Assembly: GCA_017550535.1 (NCBI GenBank)
Contig: JAFZOS010000054.1
Coordinates: 1-43,552 of the forward strand
Reading direction: 5' to 3'
Length of the DNA stretch: 43,552 nt
From: Lachnospiraceae bacterium
GTDB taxonomy: Bacteria; Bacillota; Clostridia; Lachnospirales; Lachnospiraceae
In this document: piece after piece, positions 3,323 to 34,765 of the stretch
Position numbering within the stretch: the stretch's first letter is position 1
Layout: every line of letters starts with the position of its first letter
The notes under the pieces: generated by a model
Databases searched by the model: none
Seen by the model: the letters and a program-made list of their open reading frames with translations, nothing else
Told to the model about the DNA's origin: nothing
Made by a program: the position numbers and the translations under genes

Positions 3323-3387
3323 GGGACACGGGGACGGTTCTTTTGTCCTGCGTTTTTAGCGTGACAAAAGAACCGTCCCCGTGTCCC
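3323..3387. repeat. Perfect 25-bp palindrome (REP-like) overlapping the end of the TIR gene
   Basis: Left arm 3323-3347 and right arm 3363-3387 are exact 25-base complements around a 15-base loop. The core GGGGACGGTTCTTTTGT is of the same family as the elements at 265-373 and 42708-42744. The TAA stop of the TIR-propeller gene (3356-3358) lies in the loop, and the right arm is translated as the last residues of that protein. On the minus strand the stem is followed by GGTGC and an A-run rather than a T-run, so it is not a canonical intrinsic terminator for the TIR gene, although the stem may still stabilise the 3' end of the mRNA. Confidence 0.9.
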
Positions 3388-6154
3388 AGTTTTTAAGCTC
3401 CTCCCTGCTGTATATCGGGACCTTATAATAGCTTTCCCCGTCGCCCGCGTTTATAATGAGCGCACCTTCTTCGGGAAGATATGCAGCACAGAAATCCCTG
3501 ACAAACAGGGCCTTATAGCTGTCGGTATCAATGCAGTGAATATTATAACCGTCAAATATGTAAAGCCTTCTACCGGCCTCATCGTTATTGACAACGAGTA
3601 TGTTTTCATCACAGGATGCGACCCTGTCCTGATAAACCATTTCCCCGCTTTCCGTATCAAAAACGGAGGTTGAATTCTCCTTATCCGAAACGATCACGCT
3701 GTAGCGGCCGTCTGCGCTTAAACGCTCAATGACCCTGTTTCCCCTTGACTTAAGAAGTTCAAAGTAATCATCCTTAAGCTTAAAATTGCCATCTCCCGCC
3801 TGTGACTCTGCCTCTTCCTCATCACCGTTTTCGGCTTCCATCTCCTCACGGATACCGCTTAAGTATCCCGACAGGTCAAAATCACATAAGACCGCACCCG
3901 GATCCGAAAACGCCTTAAAGATAACTATCTCGGATGCGGATGTACTCCTTACCGCTGCTAAAACGGTACTGTTAACGGTTATTGTATGCCCCTTATCGTC
4001 CTTATCCTCATACTGTATGGGGCCCGTTGCGGCTGCCCGTCTTAACTGCCCCATCGATACGCCGTATCCCCACGTAAGTATATGGCCGCCACCTTCATCC
4101 TCACTGCCCCAGCCGGTACTTGCGTATCCGCCGTTTTCAAGCAGACATCCGAGGCGCTGTCCCCTGTCATCCTCCCAGAAAAAGCTTACTATGTCACAGC
4201 CCTCGTTCCTTGATGACATGCCCGTATTGTCACTGTTTTTAAAAACATGCCAGGAATCGTTGACACCCACTGCCGTATACTGCTTCCCCGGCAGGAACAG
4301 ATATCTGTTTTTGAATTCCTCATCACTTGAATTGAGCGAATTCTTAACAGGCTGCGGCACACGCTCCTTATGTATGCTTTTATCCGCCTTTACATGAACT
4401 GCCAGGATGCCGCTTTCTTTCCACTCATACCTGTAAACGTTAAGCTCGTCATCACCGGCAAAACTTATCCCGATAAGCGGGCTGTACTTCGGATACGTGA
4501 TCACATCGCTTCCGCGGTTTATGGCATCGCCCGTTTCAAGATCCCAGATGCAGTATGATTCTGCTCCCATTTCGCTGTAACGGTCCTCTTTATCCTCCAT
4601 CGTGAAAACACAGGCAAAACGTGAACCATCCTCCAGGAAGGCTCCGTTATTCATCGCAATGCGCATGCCCGTGCCCGAAAGCATGTATTTATCCGATAAC
4701 TTATCATCAACCGGCACTGCGGCAGATGAAATGACTTTTCCCGTAACGTTGTCAACAAGCCTTAACCTTAAACCGCCTTCCTTTGTTTCCGCATCCATCA
4801 AAACGATACGGCCTCCGTGCGGATCGGCCGCGCAGTATATATCCCCCCCGGTATCGGAATAAAGCTGATCCTGCTTAAGTGCGTCAGAATCAATCGCCCA
4901 CAGCAGCGAGCCGTCCTTTACATCAATGCCGCACACATGCCTGTATGTATGGCATATCAGCACATCCGGGGTTTTGTCGCTTATCTTTTCAAGGACACAG
5001 GGATTGCTCATCGCTTCCGAATCCCATATCTGTGTTTCCCAGCCGGTCTTATATGTCCACACAAGTTCGGAATCACCGGTATCAAAACACCTTATCTGCC
5101 CGGTCGCATCCGTTGTGAACACCCTGCTGCCGTCGGGACTTATCACCATCGATACTATATCTGTATCCTGGGAAAGCACCCGCTCGGCCCTGAACCTGCC
5201 GGAAACATCGTAAGCACCCAGAGCTTCCGTAAGCAGTGCCTCTGCGCCTGCGGCAACGGCTGCATCCGACGGTCCTTCGCTTACCGCTTCGTACGCACTG
5301 TTTACAGCACCCGCCCGGTCACCCTTTTCAAGGAGGAGCCGCCCTTCGCGCATAAGTATCTCGGCGTTCTGATTCTTTATCTCATCAAGCTGGCCGGATA
5401 TCTGCCTGTTGCTCTCTTCTATCTTTCTGTTTTTCTCCTCAATCTTTTTATTGTCTTCCTCAATCCTTATGTTATCGGCCTCGATCTGCCGATTCTTTGA
5501 TGCGATCCTTGAATTCTGAAACAGTACAACCCCGAGGAAACACGATACCACGATAAGGGCAGCAGTAAGAATCACACTCATCCGGCGCTGTCTGTACCGC
5601 CTTTCCCTCTGCCACAGCGTATCAAACGGACATCCGAGCATGGCGGCACACAGCCTGAACACTTCGCGGTTAAGCCTTCCCGGCCGGTAATGATGATTCT
5701 TATCAGTCAGATTGGCCGCAAGGGGCTCAACCTGTTCCAGGCTGCCGTCTTTATTTTTTGCCCAAAGGATAGACGGAGGAAATGACTCATCCGGCGTGCC
5801 CTCCACAAGTACGGCAAGAACATTTTCCCTCGGATGGCCCTCAAGAAAATAGTCGATCTCCCTTGTTACCCACATCGATTCCTTTGTCTTTGGAGTACAC
5901 ACAACGATCAGGAATTTTGTGTTATCCAGCGCCTGTTTTATGCTCCCTGACAGATTGGATGATGCAGGCAGTTCTTCTTCATCCCTGAACACATATCCCA
6001 GCCGGTCGCTGTCCGTGATGATCCGGTATTCTTTAGGCACACGGTAATGCTCAAGCTTTGAATGGAGCAGCTTTGCAACCGTCTTGTCGGGTATAAGATG
6101 CCTGTAGCTTATGAATGCTATATAATTACGTTCGTTTTTGTCTTTCGATATCAT
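3356..6154 (-). CDS. TIR-domain membrane protein with coiled coil and beta-propeller repeats
   Basis: 932 residues. Residues 8-175 form a TIR domain, with AFISYRH (13-19), the RDEEELPASS loop (57-66) and SMWVTRE, where Glu99 occupies the place of the catalytic glutamate of NAD-cleaving TIRs. A very basic stretch (183-192) precedes a single membrane helix (193-212). A coiled coil of repeated EE(D/K)NKKIEE-like heptads (214-265), a short helical TPR-like segment (about 265-315) and WD40/PQQ-like strands to the end follow. The positive-inside rule puts the TIR domain in the cytosol and the propeller outside. The ATG overlaps the TGA of the upstream secreted-protein gene (ATGA), indicating translational coupling. 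The last 10 or so residues (NWDTGTVLLSR) come from the palindrome at 3323-3387. NADase activity and the role are inferred; a scaffold TIR is the alternative. Confidence 0.88.
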   Translation of the reverse strand: MISKDKNERNYIAFISYRHLIPDKTVAKLLHSKLEHYRVPKEYRIITDSDRLGYVFRDEEELPASSNLSGSIKQALDNTKFLIVVCTPKTKESMWVTREIDYFLEGHPRENVLAVLVEGTPDESFPPSILWAKNKDGSLEQVEPLAANLTDKNHHYRPGRLNREVFRLCAAMLGCPFDTLWQRERRYRQRRMSVILTAALIVVSCFLGVVLFQNSRIASKNRQIEADNIRIEEDNKKIEEKNRKIEESNRQISGQLDEIKNQNAEILMREGRLLLEKGDRAGAVNSAYEAVSEGPSDAAVAAGAEALLTEALGAYDVSGRFRAERVLSQDTDIVSMVISPDGSRVFTTDATGQIRCFDTGDSELVWTYKTGWETQIWDSEAMSNPCVLEKISDKTPDVLICHTYRHVCGIDVKDGSLLWAIDSDALKQDQLYSDTGGDIYCAADPHGGRIVLMDAETKEGGLRLRLVDNVTGKVISSAAVPVDDKLSDKYMLSGTGMRIAMNNGAFLEDGSRFACVFTMEDKEDRYSEMGAESYCIWDLETGDAINRGSDVITYPKYSPLIGISFAGDDELNVYRYEWKESGILAVHVKADKSIHKERVPQPVKNSLNSSDEEFKNRYLFLPGKQYTAVGVNDSWHVFKNSDNTGMSSRNEGCDIVSFFWEDDRGQRLGCLLENGGYASTGWGSEDEGGGHILTWGYGVSMGQLRRAAATGPIQYEDKDDKGHTITVNSTVLAAVRSTSASEIVIFKAFSDPGAVLCDFDLSGYLSGIREEMEAENGDEEEAESQAGDGNFKLKDDYFELLKSRGNRVIERLSADGRYSVIVSDKENSTSVFDTESGEMVYQDRVASCDENILVVNNDEAGRRLYIFDGYNIHCIDTDSYKALFVRDFCAAYLPEEGALIINAGDGESYYKVPIYSREELKNWDTGTVLLSR

Positions 6155-9100
6155 TCAGCTACCGTCAATTCAATTTCCACCCGGTGCTTACCGTCACAGC
6201 TTCCAACGATTATTATAGCCTTGCTCCCCGGGCTTGCGCTTTTTGCAACAGAAATACTTCCGCTCTTTGATACGGTCGCGATCCCTTTATCCGAACTTAT
6301 ATATGTCAGCGATGTATCGGTATACTTGCTGTAACCGGCATATATGCGCTTCCACGAAATATATTCCGTATCGGATGAAACACCGTTGATCTCAATGACA
6401 GGCTTAAGGTTAAGCTTCGATCCGGCCTTAACCTTACCCGTGTATTTTCCCTCCGTATCCGACGGGGTCACATCCGAGTAGCCGTTCTTACCGGCATCGG
6501 TCGTAAGCCTTAAGTCGGATATCTGTCCGCGGACTGTAACAAGGCATGTTAATTTTTTACCGTCTGCCGAAATGCCTGTAAGCTTTGTAACGCCCGGAGC
6601 ATTGGCCTCGATCGCAAGATACTGATCCGGACCGACAGTAGCCGACTCATCAAAGCTTGCCGTTTCCGGCCTCATATTCTTATGGACAGCCGCCAGTGTT
6701 ACTATATCCTCATCGGATGTCCACCTGACGGGAACCATCGATGCTTCGGCAGGGATCGGTGTCATGTTGATCCTTCCGTATTTGGTTCCCTCCGATGTCC
6801 CTATCGTGATCTTCTTCCTGTCTGTATTTATCTTCTTAAGCGGCGCATATACCGTAAACGACACGCTGGCCTTACATCCGGAGCCCTCTGCGGTTATCGT
6901 CACCTTACCGCCCTTTGCTGTCGGTGAAACTGCCTTGATCACTCCCGAATTGCTGACAACCGCTATCGATCTGTCCGACGATTTCCATGTGATGGCATTG
7001 CCCGGGAGCTTTCCTTCGCCGTTTTGCTCAATTTCATATTTTACTGCGTATTTCCCGCCTACAGCCAGGCCCTTATCAACAAGACCTTCCGTATCTGCAA
7101 ACCTGACGGATTTTACGGAAGGAACCACCTTGATCTTACAAAAAGCCTTGGGGTGATTGCCCTTCTTATCGGCTGCTTTCGCCGTTGCCGTTACTATGGC
7201 CGCCCCTGCTTTTATCCCGGTTAAAACGCCTTTATCATCAACCGTAACAATTCCTGTATCGGAGCTTTCCCAGGTGACCCCATTATCCCCGTCGGGATAT
7301 ACCGGATCGAAGATCACACCGAGGCTGTTTAAATCTCCCACTCCGAGTATCAACGCCGCACTCGAAAGCTTTATTGCCTTAATCGGCTTGTCATCAACAA
7401 TATCAACAAAGCAGCTAAACGTTTTTTTGTATCCGTTATATGCTTCAACGATCGCGTTAACAGGTATTTTCCTGGTCGGGACTGCCTGGTCCTTTACATT
7501 TATGACACCTGTCAATGCATTAACGCTAAGCTTATCTTCATATCCGCTTCCCACTTCGTATCTGATGCTCGGTCCGGTTCCCGGCGTGATGCCGGTAGCC
7601 ACTGCCCCTTCAATTCCGGGTGTGATGTATGTTTCGAGCTTAAGACCGTTGCCTGACAGTGACCGGCTGATCGTTGCCGATGTCATGTTAAGCCTTACAC
7701 TCCTGATCGGAACATATATCTGTATGTCAACAGAAGCCGTTTTGGTCGGATCAGCCGTGCTTACAGCCGTAACAGTAACACAGCCTTCCGATGATCCGGT
7801 CAGAATGCCGCGGGCATTTATCTGCGCATGCGCCCTGCCCGTATCCGCCTTGTTTTTAACGCTCCAATTAACCGGGATATTTACTGCCTTACCGTCAGCG
7901 GAAAATGTTCTGATCGAAAGGCTGCTGCCGGCTGCAAGTTTATCGGTACCTCCCACGCTCTTTATTACAAAATCATTCACAACAACCGGGTTTGTAACCG
8001 CTTCCTGTGTAACCTCTACAGTACAGGTCGCGGTAAGTGCCTGTCCGCCATTCTCATTGATCGTAGCCTTTATGACCGCCGTACCCTCGCATATTGCCGT
8101 AACCCTGCCGTCACACGTGACAGCTGCGACATTGGTATCGGTACTGGTCCATACAAGATCCTGTGCGTCAAAAGCATGCCCGTCTGCATATCCGGCAGTC
8201 AGCGCAAATGCCTTTCCTGCCTGCAGCCTGTTAAATGTACATTCCGTAAGTTTACTTCCGGCTTTCGTATACAGCTTAAAGTCAGCCTGTCCTTCCCGGA
8301 CCGTAAGAGAAACGGAAGGATCATCGCCATCCGAAAATACTGCCGTCAGTACATGATCTCCGACAGAAAGCGAATCAAGAAAATCCGCATTCAGTCCGAC
8401 ATACATTTTATCGCCTGAGACGGTTTCGTTTCCGCTTACCGTTGCTATACTTCCACGTGTATAATTAGCTTCGTTTATAAGCTTTCCGTCAACCTCGATC
8501 CCTTCAAAATAACGCATGGCCGAACCGTTGTCTGCTGTCCTGTTAAGCCTTATATTGCATTCCGACAGAGATCCCTTAGTCCACGTTACAGGTTCATTTT
8601 CCTCATGTTTGTATACTGCCGTTTCCGCTTTTATCGAGTTTTGTTTATCCGGCGCTATACCTATTCCTATGATATTTGTGCCTTTTTTATAATTATCGTC
8701 CAGCTCATTGTATTCGTCATGATAAATATAGAAATTAACACCGGTGCCGCTGTCCCCGCTTTTGTCCGCATTTCCGTTCGAATCCGCGATCGTTACGGTC
8801 AGCCGGTCTCCCTTATACCAATGCGTACAATAGTCAAGCTTTGCATTTTTACCATCCTGATATACCATGTACTCCCAATTGGAATTACTGCCTGACGGCA
8901 TTTCGATCCCGCCTTCTTTCAGGATATCGTACAGATTCTTAGACCCCTGATAATCATCCCTTGCTACGCTCTTAAACCAGTCAAGGGTCGGCACCTTGAT
9001 ATTATTACTGTTATCATAGTACAGAAACTGGCTCCAGAATCCATACACAGGCTCCCAGCCGTTTTTTCCTTTACTTATGCCCTTGGGTTTGGTTACATAG

Positions 9101-10335
9101 ACATATTTTTTCCTGCCCGGCCTTAGTCCCGCGGTTCTGGCTTCCTGGGGTATCACCTGTTTTTTTGCTGTTTTGTATAAGAGCAGCTCATGTTTGGGAT
9201 ACTGATAAAACCTTACGCTGTCATCCCTGATGCTGACGGCAGAATCATCATAAGCCTTCTTGACCTTCGCCATCTGGTCTTTAAGATCGATCCTTGCGGT
9301 TTCCAGCGTATCGTATGTCAGGTTATTTGCGGAAAGATATTCGATCCTTGAGCACAGTGACATATAATCAACCGTAGACATTGTCGCATAACGGGCATAA
9401 ACGGCATTTCTCATGGCCAGCCATTCATCATAAGCCTGATGTTCCCAATGATATTTATACTTACACCACATATGGATCACTTCAAAAAGGTTTTCACTGT
9501 CCATACTTGACATGTGTATGGGACCTGTAAGCATTTCGCCCAACGCATACACATTCTTATCCATATTGCATTCGGCGCCGGACACATATTTAGTCTGCTC
9601 ATTATTTGTCTCGACCATATCATATATAAGTGCTTTATTGCGCCTGTCTGCTTTATCTTTCGCTGAAAGATCCTTATTGTTGTCTATATTCCTCAGCGTT
9701 CTGTATCCGTTTCCCGGATCGATCTTTGCAAATGTATTAAGCTGGCCTGCCAGCTCTTCTGCATGGAGTACCTTATCAAGATTGGCCAGCTTGCCCATCA
9801 TCTCATCCTGATTCTTAACCACTTCATCCAGCTTATTCATGATATCCTGCGTTGTAGGCTGACCCTTGGATCCGAAGGCAAGCGAAAGCAGATCCGGTAT
9901 GGCCTCGCTTATGACCCAGCCGGCAACCTCGGCAGGATTCCCGCCGGTCTCTATTAATCCGCCCAGCTGCCTGAGAGCTTCCTGCGCCGCAAGAAGATCC
10001 TCCTGAGAGCTCCCCTGCAGATTTTCGTCGTTATACTCCGATACCGACTCGGGTTCCGAATCTTTATCCGGTTCGATGTTCTCTATGGGTGTAACCGGCT
10101 CCGTGTAGGATAAGCTCTCCAAATCCTGTATTCCATCCGGCTCAGAAATATCATCCAAAGCCGAAAGCTCATCTGTTTCAGGCATGTCGGCCTGTCCGGA
10201 TATATCCTCCTCAACATATGCTTCCGCAATGCCGGTTTCCGGAATCAATTCCTGCGCCGTAACTGACATTGGCTGCGATATTACCATGGCCGCAACAAGC
10301 CATACCGATATACGGGTTTTCATTCTTTTTTTCAT
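6151..10335 (-). CDS. Large secreted protein: helical N-terminal module plus Big_2 (Ig-like) repeats
   Basis: 1394 residues. A signal peptide (1-27, likely cut after VTA) precedes an acidic Glu/Asp/Pro-rich linker (28-110). A helical region follows (about 112-375), starting with a hydrophobic hairpin around GWVISEAIPDLLSLAFG (139-155) and an amphipathic helix (164-192). A unique Tyr/Trp-rich region spans 375-550. From about 690 to the end there are six or seven Ig-like domains with the Big_2 signature, for example VTWESSDTGIVTVDDKGVLTG and ITWKSSDRSIAVVSNSGVI. No LPXTG motif, lipobox or C-terminal helix is visible, so it is secreted or held non-covalently. The ATG at 10333-10335 has GGGAGG about 9 bases upstream and a good promoter further up. 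It is the first gene of the operon with the TIR protein. The function is not recognised; an adhesin or a toxin-like module are possibilities. Confidence 0.85.
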   Translation of the reverse strand: MKKRMKTRISVWLVAAMVISQPMSVTAQELIPETGIAEAYVEEDISGQADMPETDELSALDDISEPDGIQDLESLSYTEPVTPIENIEPDKDSEPESVSEYNDENLQGSSQEDLLAAQEALRQLGGLIETGGNPAEVAGWVISEAIPDLLSLAFGSKGQPTTQDIMNKLDEVVKNQDEMMGKLANLDKVLHAEELAGQLNTFAKIDPGNGYRTLRNIDNNKDLSAKDKADRRNKALIYDMVETNNEQTKYVSGAECNMDKNVYALGEMLTGPIHMSSMDSENLFEVIHMWCKYKYHWEHQAYDEWLAMRNAVYARYATMSTVDYMSLCSRIEYLSANNLTYDTLETARIDLKDQMAKVKKAYDDSAVSIRDDSVRFYQYPKHELLLYKTAKKQVIPQEARTAGLRPGRKKYVYVTKPKGISKGKNGWEPVYGFWSQFLYYDNSNNIKVPTLDWFKSVARDDYQGSKNLYDILKEGGIEMPSGSNSNWEYMVYQDGKNAKLDYCTHWYKGDRLTVTIADSNGNADKSGDSGTGVNFYIYHDEYNELDDNYKKGTNIIGIGIAPDKQNSIKAETAVYKHEENEPVTWTKGSLSECNIRLNRTADNGSAMRYFEGIEVDGKLINEANYTRGSIATVSGNETVSGDKMYVGLNADFLDSLSVGDHVLTAVFSDGDDPSVSLTVREGQADFKLYTKAGSKLTECTFNRLQAGKAFALTAGYADGHAFDAQDLVWTSTDTNVAAVTCDGRVTAICEGTAVIKATINENGGQALTATCTVEVTQEAVTNPVVVNDFVIKSVGGTDKLAAGSSLSIRTFSADGKAVNIPVNWSVKNKADTGRAHAQINARGILTGSSEGCVTVTAVSTADPTKTASVDIQIYVPIRSVRLNMTSATISRSLSGNGLKLETYITPGIEGAVATGITPGTGPSIRYEVGSGYEDKLSVNALTGVINVKDQAVPTRKIPVNAIVEAYNGYKKTFSCFVDIVDDKPIKAIKLSSAALILGVGDLNSLGVIFDPVYPDGDNGVTWESSDTGIVTVDDKGVLTGIKAGAAIVTATAKAADKKGNHPKAFCKIKVVPSVKSVRFADTEGLVDKGLAVGGKYAVKYEIEQNGEGKLPGNAITWKSSDRSIAVVSNSGVIKAVSPTAKGGKVTITAEGSGCKASVSFTVYAPLKKINTDRKKITIGTSEGTKYGRINMTPIPAEASMVPVRWTSDEDIVTLAAVHKNMRPETASFDESATVGPDQYLAIEANAPGVTKLTGISADGKKLTCLVTVRGQISDLRLTTDAGKNGYSDVTPSDTEGKYTGKVKAGSKLNLKPVIEINGVSSDTEYISWKRIYAGYSKYTDTSLTYISSDKGIATVSKSGSISVAKSASPGSKAIIIVGSCDGKHRVEIELTVAE

Positions 10336-10374: not shown

Positions 10375-10403
10375 ATTGTATATAAATCATCTTAACTTTT
10401 CAA
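10375..10403 (-). promoter_or_regulatory. Promoter of the Big_2/TIR operon
   Basis: On the minus strand a -35 TTGAAA (10398-10403) and a -10 TACAAT (10375-10380) are separated by exactly 17 bp. The -10 lies about 40 bp before the ATG of the secreted-protein gene. Both hexamers are close to the sigma-A consensus. Confidence 0.65.
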
Positions 10404-32917: not shown

Positions 32918-34765
32918 TTACCACCTGATTCTAACACGTTTTTTTATCACAAACAATACGATAAGCGCCAGGCCCATGCATGCCCCAAGGAATATTATGT
33001 TCTTTGAAAGGTTTACTGTCGACGCCTGCCCCGGCATTCCTTCAAAGGACGGCCGCATACCGTTTCCGGGCGCCCCTCCCGCCTTTGTCCTGCCGCCGCG
33101 GCGCTTGCCTTCCTCTCCTTCCTTAACGCCGCCCATGTTAAAGGTTCCCATGGTGCTTATATCTATTTCCGATGCATCGATAAGTGAGGAAGAATCAGCC
33201 TTCTGTCCTTCGTCGGTCGAGGGGATCGTACCGTTAAGCTGACCGATCACGCTCTCTGCGCGAAGCAGGATCGTTTCATGAAGCATTTCCGCTGCAGCTT
33301 CATATTCATCACCGCTGTAAAACGCAGTGGGATCGGTTTCAACCAGCTCATCTATCTGGTTCCTGATACGGGAATATACTTCCTCAAAGCGTCCGCCTTC
33401 AACATATTCTTCGGCAAGCTGCCTTAAGTATCCGTGGTATATCTCAAGATACTCCTCGTTTTCAAGCAGCGCATCGAAAAAGTCGGTACCGTCAAACGGC
33501 GTGTCTATCGCATCGTTTATCATATCATCGGCGCCTTCCGACTTGCCTGCCGACATCCCGCCGAATGAGAGGTTGTAGTCCCACGGGAACATGTTTAGCT
33601 GCCCGTTGTATTCATACAGATAGTAGTTGTGCGCCATGTTGCCCGAAAGCGAATCCATGTTGACCGCGAAGGCGTGGACCGCCATGTATTTAAGGATATT
33701 GTCTATGTCAAGGTACTTTTCAAGATCAGTGCCTTCGCTTATGTTCTTAAGCGCCGTTACAACCCTGCGGTGATCGCCCTTGCTGGTGTCCGTTATCTCG
33801 CCTTCCCATATCGTCTCGTAGCTGTCAAGGTCATCGTCCGTGTAGTTTAAGTTTGCGCCCTTTCCTCCCATGGACGGACCGCCACCGCCGCCGGGCCTGT
33901 TGCTGTCAGAATCACCCGCTGCTTCATTACTGCCGTCAGCTTCGAAATCAGGAGGTGTGGGCATGTTCGATGGATCGAAGTCTCCGAAATCCGGCATCTC
34001 TCCGGGCTTGAAATCCCCCATATCAGGCATGTTTTCGGGATCGAAATCAGGCATGCCTTCGGGTTTTTCTCCTCCGGGGAATCCGCCGGGGCCGCCGCCC
34101 GATGATGAATCCTTATTGCCGCCGCCGATCTCCATGCTGTCGGGCTTATAAAGTTCACCGTCCTGGGTACCGAAGTTACGCAGCATAAAGCTCTTCTCAA
34201 CCGCCTCGAGTGCTAAGTACACGCCCCAGTATTCGCCGTTTAATGATACCTTCGCGTAGTTATAAAGCGATGCGTCCGCTCCGATATAATTGAACATATC
34301 GTATACTATGGCTTCCTTCATATTGGTGGCATCAGCGTAGTCATTGTTAAGGATCAGCTTATCAAGTCCCCAGCATGTCTGCCCTTCCACGAAGTGATCG
34401 AACTCAAGCTTAAAGCTGTATCGGTCCGTATCAGGATTCATGGCAATAGATGACAGGCTCGTGTTGCCCTTAGGCCTTATCGCAACGTTTTTAAACGTTT
34501 TGCCGTTGACCGTAACATCGCATACGTAGTATTCTTCGCTCGTTGCATTCTCAAGCATCTTTGTCCACTCTTCCTCGTCCATGTCTATGTTGATGCTTAT
34601 GATCTCATCTGTATCGAAAAGCTCCGTCTCATATTCCATTTTTACGGTCCGGTCGCCTAAAATGTCCTCGAGCTTGTCCGAAAACGTGACGGCCAGGATG
34701 CACAGGATCACGGCGACGGACATGATGGCTATTATTATCTTGGATATATGTTTGTTGTTGATCAT
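32918..34765 (-). CDS. CotH-family kinase-like membrane protein
   Basis: 615 residues. An N-terminal helix (8-27), the CotH kinase-like domain, and a C-terminal helix (about 587-606) followed by KKRVRIRW. CotH motifs are IRPKGNTS (96-103), LNNDYADATNMKEA (138-151) and MFPWDYNLSFGG (392-403), whose Asp is expected to bind metal and nucleotide. The domain is interrupted by a Gly/Pro/Met/Asp-rich insert (212-303) made of imperfect repeats such as MPDFDPENMPDMGDF. CotH proteins phosphorylate Ser in coat or secreted proteins, but the target here is unknown. It is the third gene of the VTC - DUF4956 - CotH operon, a grouping I recognise from Clostridia. Start ATG at 34763-34765. Confidence 0.92.
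   Translation of the reverse strand: MINNKHISKIIIAIMSVAVILCILAVTFSDKLEDILGDRTVKMEYETELFDTDEIISINIDMDEEEWTKMLENATSEEYYVCDVTVNGKTFKNVAIRPKGNTSLSSIAMNPDTDRYSFKLEFDHFVEGQTCWGLDKLILNNDYADATNMKEAIVYDMFNYIGADASLYNYAKVSLNGEYWGVYLALEAVEKSFMLRNFGTQDGELYKPDSMEIGGGNKDSSSGGGPGGFPGGEKPEGMPDFDPENMPDMGDFKPGEMPDFGDFDPSNMPTPPDFEADGSNEAAGDSDSNRPGGGGGPSMGGKGANLNYTDDDLDSYETIWEGEITDTSKGDHRRVVTALKNISEGTDLEKYLDIDNILKYMAVHAFAVNMDSLSGNMAHNYYLYEYNGQLNMFPWDYNLSFGGMSAGKSEGADDMINDAIDTPFDGTDFFDALLENEEYLEIYHGYLRQLAEEYVEGGRFEEVYSRIRNQIDELVETDPTAFYSGDEYEAAAEMLHETILLRAESVIGQLNGTIPSTDEGQKADSSSLIDASEIDISTMGTFNMGGVKEGEEGKRRGGRTKAGGAPGNGMRPSFEGMPGQASTVNLSKNIIFLGACMGLALIVLFVIKKRVRIRW

Follow-up and report, generated by a model that had tools for sequence, protein, structure and literature searches.

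The window, i.e., the whole stretch of 43,552 nucleotides that was analysed, originates from a rumen gut bacterium and carries two genes on its minus strand that share the nucleotides ATGA. In reading direction the gene of a secreted protein comes first and is followed by the gene of a TIR protein, an arrangement that an earlier note on this DNA had described and that the open reading frames (ORFs) confirm. The locus comprises the following features:

3323..3387, no strand: REP-like palindrome (GGGACACGGGGACGGTTCTTTTGTC and its complement) across the 3' end and stop codon of the TIR gene (genome half-site count)
3356..6154, minus strand: gene of the TIR - membrane helix - coiled coil - beta-propeller receptor, 932 aa (ORF, Pfam, AlphaFold model)
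3395..5203, minus strand: predicted beta-propeller ectodomain, residues 318-920
5327..5464, minus strand: coiled-coil type helix, residues 231-276 (AF2 model; heptad-like repeat by reading the sequence)
5519..5575, minus strand: membrane helix, residues ~194-212, with RERRYRQRR just before it (hydrophobicity, charge; AF2 helix 177-222)
5636..6124, minus strand: TIR domain, residues 11-173, cytosolic by prediction (Pfam TIR_2 1.1e-10, ThsB_TIR 2.1e-9; AF2 secondary structure)
5858..5860, minus strand: codon of the catalytic-type Glu99 (alignment)
6151..6154, minus strand: ATGA stop/start overlap of the secreted gene and the TIR gene
6151..10335, minus strand: gene of the secreted protein with Big_2 domains, 1394 aa (ORF, Pfam, signal peptide by a simple rule)
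6154..6654, minus strand: C-terminal module of the secreted protein, residues ~1228-1394, common to other large ORFs of the genus (genus-genome search)
6856..8238, minus strand: Big_2 (bacterial Ig-like) region, approximate borders (Pfam)
8416..10068, minus strand: N-terminal domain of the secreted protein, residues ~90-640, of no known family (homologues in L055, where there are two, L056, L059 and L092)
10255..10335, minus strand: signal peptide, residues ~1-27 (read from the sequence, MKKRMKTRISVWLVAAMVISQPMSVTA; simple rule)
10375..10403, minus strand: sigma-70-like promoter TTGAAA-17-TACAAT ahead of the secreted gene (motif match)

The ATGA overlap speaks for the operon that had been proposed, and the two genes are presumably co-transcribed and translationally coupled. 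The match to the promoter claimed for it, TTGAAA-17-TACAAT, is no more frequent than in shuffled sequence. The pair is flanked by a PPi-dependent phosphofructokinase on one side and by a divergent periplasmic-binding/GGDEF protein on the other. The further window genes that were scanned encode metabolic, transport, chemotaxis, two-component and similar proteins, and none of them points to a defence island. PADLOC, applied to the pair and four other window proteins, gave weak matches for the TIR protein, the best being 2e-4 to PDC-S66, with ThsB at 3e-3. A mad3 match (6.6e-53) of an ECF-type transporter ATPase was dismissed as plain ABC-ATPase likeness. The window also encodes a CotH kinase family protein at 32918-34765 (E 5.2e-59). 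The half-site of the REP-like palindrome occurs 18 times in the genome at up to 2 mismatches, and its reversed control 0 times. The TIR gene takes its final codons and its stop from the palindrome, the core of which recurs at the TIR 3' end of the orthologous locus L054 (6063 and 6103).

All parts that the earlier note had read in the TIR protein, namely Glu99, a basic patch, one membrane helix, a coiled coil and a propeller, were recovered by Pfam, by charge and in an AlphaFold model of the 932 residues (pLDDT 80.6). The domain possesses the catalytic Glu of bacterial NADase TIR domains, and this residue is Glu in each of the 147 aligned rows that have a residue there, the remaining five of 152 rows being gapped. 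TIR_2 was matched by all 46 sequences scanned, the window protein included, and propeller models by many of them. Pfam detected neither an LRR nor, at E up to 0.05, a STAND/NB-ARC NTPase in the window TIR protein, and the propeller lies C-terminal to the helix. The protein has one transmembrane helix (TM) after the basic stretch and no signal peptide ahead of it, and the charges predict a cytosolic N-terminus (N-in). Of the 147 TIR ORFs that reach 600 aa or more, 146 have a TM at 140-320 and one lacks a clear TM; 124 of these 146 are N-in by charge, the other 22 having no more positive charge on the N-terminal side of the helix. The dN/dS between the window gene and its orthologue in genome G014 is 0.064 for the TIR part, where synonymous sites are near saturation (dS 1.9), and 0.177 for the propeller, i.e., both are under purifying selection. 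The ectodomain gave no sign of positive selection (omega 0.18).

Matches that cover only the helical and the first propeller part turned out, where followed up, to be protein kinases (Pkinase 1.1e-33 in L091 and 4.3e-36 in L293). The 16 kinase siblings that were fetched (L301-L314, L316, L091) all show similarity to L293 in kinase and ectodomain alike, and the kinase ectodomain is matched at 1e-12 in 15 of 299 family genomes, in one of them weakly via a TIR receptor. Across 556 aa of TM, helix and propeller, the L091 kinase is 34% identical to the TIR receptor L077 (E 1.7e-73); its identity to the window TIR protein is 27% across 150 aa (E 3e-8). A single sensor type with two alternative outputs strongly supports the reading as a receptor. 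The TIR domain inside and the propeller outside, as had been proposed from the letters, is therefore the best reading of the window protein, supported by prediction and by the homologous TM-helix-propeller part of the kinase siblings.

A comparable plan has been described for PknD of Mycobacterium tuberculosis, which has an intracellular Ser/Thr kinase and an extracellular sensor in the form of a symmetric six-bladed beta-propeller (PMC3601408). The kinase siblings follow this general plan of an intracellular enzyme with an extracellular propeller. The window protein shares with PknD, by prediction and homology, the helix followed by an outside propeller, but it carries a TIR domain instead of the N-terminal kinase, has a coiled coil and a helical segment ahead of the propeller, and its propeller matches WD40/PQQ models. 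With Toll-like receptors it has in common a single membrane helix and a cytosolic TIR domain, as predicted from hydrophobicity, charge and the AF2 helix, whereas in comparison to the animal receptors the order is reversed with the TIR domain N-terminal, a propeller stands in place of LRRs and the catalytic-type Glu is conserved. The two can be regarded as alike in plan, and nothing here shows descent as a receptor. The bacterial TIR enzymes that are best known reside in the cytosol and are interpreted as alarms against phage. The window protein resembles ThsB of Thoeris and further TIR enzymes of bacteria in the TIR_2/ThsB_TIR match and the conserved Glu; here, however, the TIR domain belongs to a predicted membrane receptor, and ThsA (SIR2/SLOG or another effector) is not among the immediate neighbours. 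NLR-like effector-NTPase-WD40 proteins also have an N-terminal effector and a C-terminal repeat or propeller part, but the window protein has a membrane helix in place of the NTPase. PMC9153377 covers TIR-NTPase proteins with LRR, WD40 or TPR repeats and also TIR proteins extended by small additional parts, for instance transmembrane regions; further literature on the subject is PMC7075850, PMC8195603, PMC7159879 and PMC10907252. Among the matches listed from open-licence literature on transmembrane or WD40 bacterial TIR proteins, no description of a class of membrane TIR-propeller receptors was found.

TIR receptors of this kind are widespread among gut bacteria related to the source organism. 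They are matched in 25 of 61 genomes of the genus and order, the own genome included, and in 53 of 299 family genomes (nearly all one per genus, again with the own genome), in 40 of them at E under 1e-20 by hand count. A database scan with the alignment as query, a single-protein query having given no match, found relatives encoded in at least 566 of 593 candidate stretches. The best 80 of the 566 stem, by title, mostly from rumen and gut Lachnospiraceae, besides Oscillospiraceae, Ruminococcaceae, Christensenellaceae, Erysipelotrichaceae, other Clostridia and two Butyrivibrio strains. The closest relative of the window TIR among these 80 is encoded on JAILJC010000102.1 (Lachnospiraceae bacterium RUI166; L145). 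All TIR loci were thus sampled by similarity to the window, from genus and order relatives, 40 family places and the best 80 of the scan; duplicates were dropped only if identical, and contig-cut loci are kept within the 147. The own genome harbors a paralogue of the window TIR receptor on contig C57 (L062). Two or three TIR receptor genes form tandem arrays in L089 (8053-15458), L158 (3752-10470), L186 (8787-15093) and L144 (8980-15036).

The secreted protein has a different distribution. The whole protein was searched against 37 genus genomes, and among the matches listed its N-terminal domain occurs in at least five further copies in three genomes (L055 twice, L092, L056, L059), which sit at unrelated genome places. 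In the 299 family genomes the N-terminal domain was found in the own genome only, besides two short matches at its end in G152 and G220, and no PDB entry matched the protein before profile position 719. The Big_2 protein is probably a genus-restricted surface protein. The five loci with the N-terminal domain gave no TIR hit as fetched, the copy in L059 ending at a contig end with its downstream side outside the view; conversely, no other TIR locus searched has the N-terminal domain. In L055 (4117-13376) the two paralogues are separated by one gene, by eye a branched-chain aminotransferase.

The full-length TIR protein of G014 (L054) shows 77% identity to that of the window, and its gene lies between the same two flanking genes; there, however, only 91 bp separate the TIR and GGDEF starts, and the secreted gene is absent. 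Between the window and G014 there are differences at the very start of the TIR protein as well as in the intergenic DNA. Orthologues of the GGDEF gene are present in nine other genus genomes (56-83% identity), and the upstream side is visible in eight, the view in G003 being cut by the contig end; a TIR gene lies there in G014 only, and the secreted gene is absent from all GGDEF loci read. From these loci, the secreted gene was either gained in the window genome or lost in the G014 orthologue. Because G014 keeps the synteny without the secreted gene, and because of the distribution of the N-terminal domain, a dedicated pair of the window TIR receptor and its secreted protein is rejected. The earlier note had proposed a sensor for its secreted partner, or for something bound to it, and had stated beforehand that TIR homologues mostly without the secreted gene would refute this; the pair is not conserved, and the specific pairing fails that test.

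The more general idea of a propeller receptor with a secreted neighbour fares better, though not for this particular protein. Among 15 kinase siblings, a count that omits the contig-cut L314 and in which some secreted ORFs are truncated where the fetched sequence stops, nine have an ORF with signal peptide directly downstream on the same strand, at a gap of -4 to 148 bp. Six secreted partners from five kinase loci (L091, L293, L294, L299 and two in L296) are homologous to each other in all 15 pairs, with a best E of 3e-32 or lower, and the five that were scanned, i.e., all except a 473-aa protein of L296, mix He_PIG, SLH, LysM, choline-binding or LRR parts variously. The kinase-membrane-propeller receptor together with this secreted family (L293, L294, L296, L299, L091) looks like a surface-sensing cassette. 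A PP2C phosphatase gene precedes the kinase receptor in L294 by Pfam, and in L293 and L296 by the start of the sequence only. Four TIR loci that are close together in the tree (L146, L147, L148, L162) have the gene order DHH phosphoesterase-TIR-secreted, with secreted proteins that are 43-59% alike. Furthermore, the TIR receptor gene in L077 overlaps an upstream secreted gene by 4 bp, whose product matches the kinase partners over short segments (E 5e-6 to 9e-5). Different secreted proteins thus really adjoin some of the receptors. Of 115 same-strand neighbours of TIR receptors within 250 bp, 16 are large and secreted, against 68 of 1102 for other genes (p 0.004; upstream 9/52, p 0.006; downstream 7/63, p 0.10). 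The rule for secretion is crude and lets lipoproteins and one-TM sensors through as well, and the four-locus group makes up 4 of the 16. This mild enrichment leaves room for a functional link. Under another signal rule, secreted neighbours upstream at a gap of <60 bp showed no enrichment (5 of 57 against 175 of 1430 in the background). The secreted protein of the window has no full-length homologue among these receptor neighbours, and at E 1e-4 it matches only that of L146, with 31% over 170 aa in the part from Big_2 to the C-terminus.

Taken together, we give a modest preference, somewhat above even, to an outward-facing single-pass TIR receptor with putative enzymatic output, next to which lies a secreted neighbour confined to the genus, whose gene was either acquired in the window genome or lost from the G014 orthologue. 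It is not very likely that the two genes are adjacent by chance, a surface-protein gene prone to mobility or recombination having separated the TIR gene from its promoter upon insertion, with ATGA as a junction accident that keeps the TIR gene expressed. The absence of the secreted gene from the other genus genomes searched (37 genomes, among the matches listed, and the GGDEF loci read), the altered TIR N-terminus and intergenic stretch, and the scattered paralogues would fit such an event; but reading and 9-mer matching revealed no insertion scar, target duplication or transposase at the junction, and a perfect ATGA fit is unexpected from a random landing. Conversely, the secreted protein could be a real partner, which binds wall or glycan outside, with the propeller sensing whether it is loaded or altered, as a local version of a theme of propeller receptor plus secreted, wall-bound Ig-like protein. 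The ATGA overlap in the window, the downstream ORFs and mutually homologous partners of the kinase siblings, the overlap in L077 and the gene order of the four-locus TIR group all point this way. We nevertheless consider it unlikely, since the orthologue does without the gene, the relatives of the N-terminal domain have no TIR hit in their loci, the <60 bp rule shows no excess, and the protein, unmatched to the other partners save that of L146, is encoded upstream and not downstream.

A third reading places the propeller in the cytosol, or takes the protein as a peripheral scaffold whose TIR domain acts by assembly only and without catalysis. The top structural matches of the propeller are indeed cytosolic or nuclear WD40 proteins, intracellular eukaryotic folds among them, alongside the periplasmic BamB; the whole-model Foldseek TM-scores are low (0.13-0.29), and the 50 rows of the structural alignment listed are all propellers and uninformative on the TIR part. 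Against a cytosolic propeller stand the single TM, which follows a basic stretch and is not preceded by a signal peptide, and the kinase siblings with their homologous TM-propeller part, and against a mere assembly module the invariant Glu, which makes this reading highly unlikely.

For the preferred receptor, it can be assumed that the propeller captures a ligand located within the cell wall or outside it and that the coiled coil and membrane helix would transmit the binding event inward. The cytosolic TIR domain with its intact Glu99 would then be the output, probably cleaving or cyclising NAD-type nucleotides, and the receptor would work like the propeller-sensor receptor protein kinases with TIR in the place of the kinase. 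The secreted Big_2 protein may have been acquired locally as a ligand or adaptor, or may be a mere passenger. If this is true, a large membrane-wired TIR family would mean that bacteria also report surface events by TIR chemistry, much like animal Toll receptors, and the swap of kinase and TIR on a homologous ectodomain would make the question of the ligand approachable from two outputs.

The most interesting by-product of the analysis is a recurrent link to a DHH-DHHA1 phosphoesterase of ~500 aa, the most frequent gene partner of the TIR receptors. Its identity comes from Pfam on three examples, with DHHA1 above or near its cut-off, and it has an extra C-terminal region without Pfam match. 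NrnA and GdpP, which we take to be relatives, differ from this enzyme, which is set apart by its ~500 aa, the C-terminal extra region and the genomic tie to TIR genes. A DHH gene lies within 2.5 kb of 61 of the 147 TIR ORFs, as immediate neighbour in 49 (35 upstream and co-directional, 12 convergent and a single case in each of two further orders) and close by without being adjacent in 12; the other 86 have none within 2.5 kb. Both genes co-occur in 25 of the 299 family genomes, where 6.3 are expected from 40 with the TIR family and 47 with the DHH gene (hypergeometric 1e-13), lists and cut-offs for both being hand-chosen. The 47 DHH genes were picked as near full-length, keeping a contig-cut gene in G149 (1.1e-60) and dropping four genomes (G168, G265, G188, G291) that match below 1e-60 to shorter forms of ~320 aa. 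A TIR ORF was found within 5 kb of 25 of these 47 genes and none for 22; three of the 25 TIRs are soluble (L235, L236, L283) and one is weak (L290, E 1.6e-5). Control loci chosen for other reasons had no TIR hit in 185 kb. In L083 (6132-8795) a TIR receptor ORF with ~318 extra residues ahead of the TIR domain overlaps an opposite-strand DHH gene; its start is probably called too early.

On the tree the DHH label is clustered, with 25 changes against 46.7 in shuffles. At least 18 changes are forced, and DHH adjacency must therefore have been gained and lost often. The window TIR falls into a clade of five rows (100/98) that showed no DHH gene next to the TIR, the view in L058, a short contig, ending downstream of its TIR; the window, L054 and L144 gave no DHH match. 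A DHH gene of the own genome instead adjoins the C57 paralogue, in convergent orientation, and this enzyme could act in trans on the product of the window TIR. According to PMC7824862, DHH enzymes are active on several cyclic nucleotide linkages, and removal or conversion of the TIR signal is therefore a natural guess; the enzyme beside the relatives could degrade, convert or read the TIR product and would offer a direct handle on the nucleotide made. Among the matches listed from open-licence literature, no description of the genomic TIR-DHH link was found. We tentatively propose, with confidence falling slightly short of even, that gut Clostridia have modular receptors facing outward, whose homologous membrane-propeller sensor is joined to either a protein kinase or a TIR enzyme, and that the TIR version with the phosphoesterase, which would remove, convert or read a TIR-derived nucleotide signal, is a two-gene signalling system; in the branch of the window the adjacent DHH gene would have been lost or would never have been present, and a secreted Ig-like protein is the neighbour in its place. 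Separate proteins also contain the C-terminal half of the DHH protein, and a soluble TIR lies nearby in five of seven such loci (L224, L226, L228, L229, L231; no TIR hit in L225 and L227). In L226 a receiver-guanylate cyclase gene stands between this protein and the soluble TIR, which is preceded by a GAF-GGDEF gene.
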